Positions 32,428-33,609 of a stretch of DNA of 61,991 bases are shown here, piece by piece (position 1 is the first letter of the stretch; the number at the start of each line of letters is the position of its first letter). Origin of the DNA: an uncultured Bacteroidia bacterium (lineage in GTDB: Bacteria; Bacteroidota; Bacteroidia; J057; CALAJH01). The notes beneath the pieces are model-generated. The model had not been told where the DNA came from and did no database searches. It saw nothing but the letters and a program-made list of their open reading frames with translations. The translations under genes and the position numbers were made by a program. The stretch spans positions 1 through 61,991 of the forward strand of contig CALAJH010000008.1 in the NCBI GenBank assembly GCA_937922655.1, written 5' to 3'.

Positions 32428-32435
32428 CAAAGATA
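32428..32435 (-). promoter_or_regulatory. -7 box for the SDR gene
   Basis: TATCTTTG on the minus strand, 25 nt upstream of the ATG at 32402. No TTG at a standard -33 distance. Confidence 0.5.
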
Positions 32436-32521: not shown

Positions 32522-32529
32522 TAACTTTG
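32522..32529 (+). promoter_or_regulatory. -7 box for the candidate structured RNA
   Basis: TAACTTTG followed by C, identical to the -7 boxes before both tRNA transcription units in this window. It ends 4 nt before the first paired base of the RNA. Confidence 0.55.
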
Positions 32530-32532
32530 CCC

Positions 32533-32690
32533 CGCAGCCGAGAGGTAGGTTAATCATAAAGTTTTAAATTTTCTCCTTCCCGCCGAACCCCGTTTTCGTT
32601 CCCATAGGGAATGGGTCTTGACAAAGAGAGGTTTTGCACCGAATAGGGGCGAAACCGGCTAGGCGGGAGGGGCCTCTTCGCTGTGTTTTT
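32533..32690 (+). ncRNA. Candidate structured noncoding RNA, ~158 nt
   Basis: No plausible protein fits this stretch, but it folds well by eye. The two ends pair: 32533-32545 with 32673-32685, 12 of 13 positions, closing the molecule immediately after the promoter. A second stem of 11 pairs joins 32574-32584 to 32662-32672 and stacks directly on the first, leaving a one-sided, AU-rich bulge of 28 nt (32546-32573). Inside are a TTCCC-ATA-GGGAA hairpin (32599-32611) and a seven-pair GGTTTTG / CGAAACC hairpin (about 32630-32656). A run of five T follows the closing stem (32686-32690). The closed ends and large internal bulge recall 6S RNA, but I cannot match it to any family. Confidence 0.5.
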
Positions 32691-32776: not shown

Positions 32777-32784
32777 TAAATTTG
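32777..32784 (+). promoter_or_regulatory. -7 box for the 20-codon ORF and secreted hypothetical
   Basis: TAAATTTG followed by C, 64 nt upstream of the small ORF's ATG at 32849. It is separate from the RNA promoter 255 nt upstream. Confidence 0.5.
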
Positions 32785-32848: not shown

Positions 32849-32911
32849 ATGTACCCGCACCCGGAGTACGAAAAACTTTTCGCCTCCATCGACGACAAAA
32901 AGCCGGCATGA
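32849..32911 (+). CDS. 20-codon ORF translationally coupled to the next gene
   Basis: ATG 32849 to TGA 32911 encodes MYPHPEYEKLFASIDDKKPA, charged and without a hydrophobic stretch. Its stop overlaps the next gene's start as ATGA, an arrangement often used for translational coupling. It is either a small protein or a leader peptide setting initiation of the secreted hypothetical. No attenuator hairpin is visible, and the codons are not biased to one amino acid. Confidence 0.4.
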   Translation: MYPHPEYEKLFASIDDKKPA

Positions 32912-33609
32912 GACGTTGTTGGGGAGTAGTAATGCTAACGTTGGCGCTTGGAGCGGCAAGCGTCCCGCAAGAGCTTGTGGCGCAAAGCGCCAACGCCTTG
33001 CAGGGCAAGCGTGTCGGCGTTTACGTTTCCAAAAAAAACTTTCGTTTTACTTACGACTTCAACCAAACGTTCGCGGGCATGTTGCAAATCGAGGACAGCC
33101 TCGGTTTGTCGGAAGAGGTCTTGCAAACGGGCATGACCATTTGGCTGGGCAACCACCTGACGCGTACGCTCGTCGAACACGTCGGTTGTCGCGACGCGTA
33201 TTTTATCAACGCTCGCCCGGAATTGGCGCAAGCGATGGTCAAGGCGTTGGAGAATCCGGATTTTCAGTTTTCGGCGTTGAAACCGCTTTTGCCCGCCGGC
33301 ACCGATTATGTGTTGTTGTTGGACGCCGCGCGTTTTCGCAAGGATTCCAAACGCACCTACCTAACTTACAGCAACAATTTATACACCTTGCCGCGCAAGA
33401 CGTCGATGGCAAGTGCGGCTATGCGATTGTATTCGGCCCAAACGGGGACGAAGGCTGCACAATGCGAAACGAGCTTCGATTCGGACGTGCCGGCGCCCCC
33501 GCGTCGGTTTATTCCCTTAACGGCCGACCACAACCCGGGTTTGACCCTTTGGAACCGGCTCTTGGACGACGGACTCTATAAATTAACCAGAAACCTCAAC
33601 AATGAATAA
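32908..33609 (+). CDS. Secreted hypothetical protein
   Basis: A 233-residue protein with a signal peptide (ending ELVAQ). I do not recognise a family. The mature part reads like a compact alpha/beta domain: GKRVGVYVSKKNFRFTYDFN, a helical middle (LSEEVLQTGMTIWLGNHLTRTLVEHVG), DYVLLLDAARFRKDSKRTYLTYS, then MASAAMRLYSAQTGTKAAQ. The pattern of a named quantity built from system data and printed values resembles some envelope-stress or lipoprotein-assembly proteins, but no catalytic residues stand out. The 3' end overlaps the next SDR by 8 nt, so they form an operon. Confidence 0.65.
   Translation: MRRCWGVVMLTLALGAASVPQELVAQSANALQGKRVGVYVSKKNFRFTYDFNQTFAGMLQIEDSLGLSEEVLQTGMTIWLGNHLTRTLVEHVGCRDAYFINARPELAQAMVKALENPDFQFSALKPLLPAGTDYVLLLDAARFRKDSKRTYLTYSNNLYTLPRKTSMASAAMRLYSAQTGTKAAQCETSFDSDVPAPPRRFIPLTADHNPGLTLWNRLLDDGLYKLTRNLNNE

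Follow-up and report, generated by a model that had tools for sequence, protein, structure and literature searches.

The window analyzed here is the whole 61,991-nt stretch of DNA, and the candidate lies in an intergenic region of it. Upstream, a divergent SDR gene has its own box, TATCTTTG, on the minus strand (32428-32435). Downstream, a gene on the plus strand (32908-33609) has its own box, TAAATTTG (32777-32784, plus strand). Since both neighbors possess boxes that mark unit boundaries, the candidate is placed in a unit of its own. It is preceded by TAACTTTG (32522-32529, plus strand), a perfect Bacteroidota −7 promoter box. The 15-mer around this box, GTAACTTTGCCCCGC, is also found 5′ of the tRNA-Ser gene, in line with the preliminary description, in which the box was said to be the same as in the tRNA units. 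Unlike the candidate, the tRNA-Ser promoter has a TTTG −33 element; no TTTG is present 17-22 nt upstream of the candidate's −7 box. The promoter of the SRP gene in the same genome consists of TTTG, 18 nt, and then TAATTTTG, located 2 nt before the SRP RNA. The candidate stretch contains no coding frame; this earlier claim holds, as does the claim that the next gene has a promoter of its own.

The predicted product is a small RNA of ~155-160 nt (32531-32690, plus strand, as are all of its parts), with a 5′ end near 32531-32534 and a 3′ end in a T-run. Its ends form a closing helix of 13 pairs with one mismatch, in two segments of six (32533-32538/32680-32685) and seven pairs (32540-32546/32672-32678). 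The 5′ arm of this helix (32533-32546) has pair probabilities of 0.84-1.0, and the 3′ arm (32672-32685), together with the T-run, would serve as an intrinsic terminator. The T-run TTTTT (32686-32690) comes right after the closing stem; it has five T only and lies partly within a TGTTTTT-CCAC-AAAAACA inverted repeat. Next to the closing helix, the fold has a one-sided AU-rich bulge (32547-32574), with 28 nt on the 5′ side and 0 nt on the 3′ side; 23 of the 28 nt (82%) are A/T. The bulge can partly fold into a weak hairpin of six pairs (unpaired probability, 0.4-0.95). An inner 10-pair helix (5′ arm, 32575-32584; 3′ arm, 32662-32671; P 0.99-1.0) stacks directly within the closing helix, and two inner hairpins are located at 32596-32614 (P 0.7-0.89) and 32630-32656 (P 0.65-1.0). 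The preliminary description had already given paired ends (12 of 13), a 28-nt bulge on the 5′ side only, and two inner hairpins with a T-run after the closing stem, all of which were recovered here. It had also counted 11 pairs in the inner stem; the stacking of this stem stands, whereas the count is corrected to 10 pairs, extended by two weaker ones (P 0.57).

The proximity of the downstream gene raises another reading, in which the candidate is a structured 5′ leader of this gene (32908-33609), joined to it by readthrough of the weak T-run. The two lie on the same strand, ~220 nt apart, and the T-run is indeed short. Yet the downstream gene is preceded by a TAAATTTG box of its own (32777), and inspection of the 14 genomes of the order with a homologue of this gene revealed no comparable RNA or leader upstream of it. 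We therefore consider a leader improbable. The closing helix is kept in most 3′ extensions of the transcript and is displaced when the transcript ends at 32900. The product of the downstream gene, an unnamed protein of 233 aa, matches no Pfam family; it occurs in 14 further genomes of the order and is absent from all genomes sampled outside the order. A 20-codon ORF (MYPHPEYEKLFASIDDKKPA, 32849-32911) is located 3′ of the TAAATTTG box, and its stop codon and the start codon of the 233-aa gene overlap in the sequence ATGA; it is possibly a small coupled upstream ORF of that gene.

The minimum free energy of the candidate is −66.2 kcal/mol (z −3.1), a value equaled in 1 of 200 shuffles, and the plus strand folds better than the minus strand (−66.2 versus −50.9). 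For comparison, 6,184 segments of 158 nt were taken over the 62 kb, 1,959 of them matched for GC content. None of the matched segments is as stable as the candidate, and after regression on G+C its residual falls within the most extreme 0.05% of segments. The motif scans covered ~2.4 Mb of the candidate's own genome (67%, window included), and the covariance-model searches covered all of it. In these 2.4 Mb, there are 127 intergenic TAnnTTTG boxes with a T4 run 80-260 nt downstream, and in 15 of them the ends form 10 or more pairs; closed ends alone are therefore weak evidence. This proportion accords with the view that the locus is not a gene, that is, that a stable fold has arisen by chance in a GC-rich intergenic region beside a chance box. 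In addition, the start of a coding sequence at L191:7696 closes even better by chance, and conservation was not found in the order, the class, plasmids, or phages. Against this view stand the top rank of the candidate in stability among the 1,959 GC-matched segments, the perfect and tRNA-like −7 box, and the lack of any intergenic box-anchored rival with the same energy density. We regard a chance fold as rather unlikely. The energy per base is −0.42 for the candidate and −0.354 for the best other member of the 127-box set, a tRNA; the filter used for this set masked the candidate itself, probably via a spurious ORF, so that these values are a comparison with the candidate and not a rank. Two further intergenic, box-anchored elements with paired ends and z values of about −3 are present in the same genome (L237:1993-2174 and L295:16451-16581), the former containing two terminator-like hairpins.

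Own-genome searches found the candidate as a single copy. A single-sequence covariance model, which detects only fairly close homologues, was run against 21 genomes of the order and 395 of the class and picked up no second member; in this set, the candidate's genome is the sole representative of its family. (The names used for the order, the families [f1-f8], and the genomes follow the search tool, G000 being the candidate's own genome.) No relative of the candidate was found in plasmids or phages. A scan of a contig collection with the downstream protein gave no relative, and one with a 3-hydroxyacyl-CoA dehydrogenase gave no close relative, the best match showing 54% identity. Short matches between the candidate's DNA and that of relatives were attributed to chance: the two best (L002 and L003) lack such an element, and the L003 match falls inside an open reading frame. 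A resemblance to a CRISPR repeat (E 2.3) was likewise due to chance, with no further copy in the genome. Because a second member was not found, a new family cannot be claimed.

At gathering thresholds, the only Rfam hits in the window were three tRNAs, and permissive scanning of the locus gave chance matches only. The Rfam models for 6S, SRP, and Bacteroidales-1 RNAs, suggested earlier as a check, did not match the locus; the earlier option of a known Bacteroidota RNA is thus rejected as far as Rfam goes. Bacterial SRP RNA (RF00169) resembles the candidate in its −7 box right before the RNA, its closed ends, and its T-run, whereas the candidate has no RF00169 match and no domain IV motif. Its assignment as SRP RNA was rejected, and the SRP RNA of this genome is located at G000:C5:14-110.

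Comparison with 6S RNA (SsrS) rests on a survey of the order and its neighbors. Among 60 relatives, RF00013 gave no match and RF01685 (6S-Flavo) gave weak matches, with good ones in other orders. In four of these matches (L031-L034), the closing stem is followed by a T-run and the fold is that of a 6S RNA, and three of them (L031-L033) showed cmscan similarity to 6S-Flavo or Bacteroidales-1 below the cut-off. Within family f3, which belongs to the same order as the candidate, a 6S model built from three of the four (R2) detected 6S in eight genomes, and a 12-sequence model (R3) did so in 12 of the 13 genomes of this sister family. In the R3 alignment, 91.9% of the cells are paired versus 40-49% when slid, a contrast that is partly built in since the structure was derived from the same sequences; changes on both sides occur in 20 of 41 pairs. 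With RF01693 (Bacteroidales-1) and unfiltered R3, a 6S RNA was detected in the two genomes of family f2 (L185 and L186) as well. These models found no 6S in families f4-f8. In the candidate's own genome, rated 100% complete, RF00013, RF01685, RF01693, R2, and R3 likewise found no 6S RNA, which may reflect either loss or strong divergence.

Like 6S RNA, the candidate belongs to this size class and has an apical arm, ends that pair in a closing stem, and an unpaired AU-rich stretch between two helices. In the 6S genes of the order, as in the candidate, the T-run directly follows the closing helix, and the −7 box lies a few nucleotides before the RNA, a spacing seen in the 6S gene of G001 and also in the candidate genome's own SRP gene. 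These likenesses, and the failure of five models to find any other 6S in this complete genome, are what would be expected of a 6S-like decoy for RNA polymerase, in which the closing helix, the AU bulge, and the inner helix mimic an open promoter; such an RNA would be an extremely diverged 6S or a replacement of a lost one. However, none of RF00013, RF01685, RF01693, R2, and R3 matched the locus. R3 gave at most 2.6 bits in the candidate region, whereas it gave 22-31 bits for the diverged 6S RNAs of family f2. The conserved 6S core (GGCGGGC...GATTAC, CATGTC, GGGGTTT) is absent. Whereas the bubble of 6S RNA is open on both strands, the candidate's bulge is on one strand only, and the missing 3′ strand of the central bubble is the site of the −10-like contact in RNA polymerase binding by E. 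coli 6S (PMC8876501). The match of AAACTTTA on the bulge's template side to the −7 box is at the level expected by chance (P 0.21), and this mimic was discarded as a promoter-like signal. Because of the lack of a model match, the missing 3′ bubble strand, and the chance-level template-side motif, we do not class the candidate as 6S. In the tests of this analysis, it is not a recognizable 6S RNA: the earlier option of a divergent 6S is unsupported, and the earlier remark that a one-sided bulge is not a typical 6S bubble proved sound. A 6S-like decoy is accordingly judged unlikely. Still less probable is that, in a lineage without detectable 6S, the role of 6S passed to a non-homologous closed RNA whose bulge, promoter-like and one-sided, would act through one bubble strand, a scenario for which we found no positive support. 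A closed element of 188 nt that follows a box (L191:7696-7883) seemed to be the missing 6S, but it proved to be the beginning of a coding sequence, and none of the 6S models matched it.

We tentatively favor an independent, single-copy, lineage-specific small-RNA gene, whose transcription and ends we infer from sequence and folding. The promoter box, the fold, the bounding T-run, and the position between divergent units all support the autonomous structured RNA proposed in the preliminary description, while the lack of a homologue, the absence of a −33 element, and the short T-run in an inverted repeat count against it. In this small-RNA gene, transcription would start just 3′ of the −7 box (32522-32529) and end in the T-run (32686-32690), with the closing helix of the RNA itself as the terminator stem. 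The product would be a closed rod of ~155 nt with a pair of apical hairpins and a single exposed loop, AU-rich and 28 nt long. Such an RNA would most likely act as a stable trans-acting regulator, its loop offering a contact surface for base pairing with mRNA or for protein binding. Action through the exposed loop, probably by base pairing, is a weaker proposal than transcription, because an antisense search of 67% of the genome found complementarity to the bulge only as 14-mers at three sites, all A/T-rich and unconvincing. Lineage-specific intergenic small RNAs of Bacteroides thetaiotaomicron (PMC7366714) are similarly intergenic, have their own promoter, and lack wide conservation; the candidate is likened to them by layout and not by sequence relation. 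If transcribed, it would add an orphan small-RNA gene to a Bacteroidota lineage whose RNAs are hardly annotated, and the loop of the candidate would provide a concrete hypothesis to test.

The 6S survey, a by-product of this analysis, may outweigh the candidate itself, as its covariation-supported model recognizes 6S RNAs of the order and its neighbors that the Rfam models miss. With this model, the apparent absence of 6S from this genome and several sister families becomes a testable question. The 6S RNAs missed or scored below the cut-off by the Rfam 6S, 6S-Flavo, and Bacteroidales-1 models are L058-L066 and L075-L078 in family f3, L185 and L186 in family f2, and L031-L034 and L063 in other orders. 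They share a common core, GGGCGGGCC...GGATTACCGA...CATGTCTTTT.GGGGTTT, and in several of them the 5′ strand of the bubble carries a short hairpin, with a further one in the 3′ strand.
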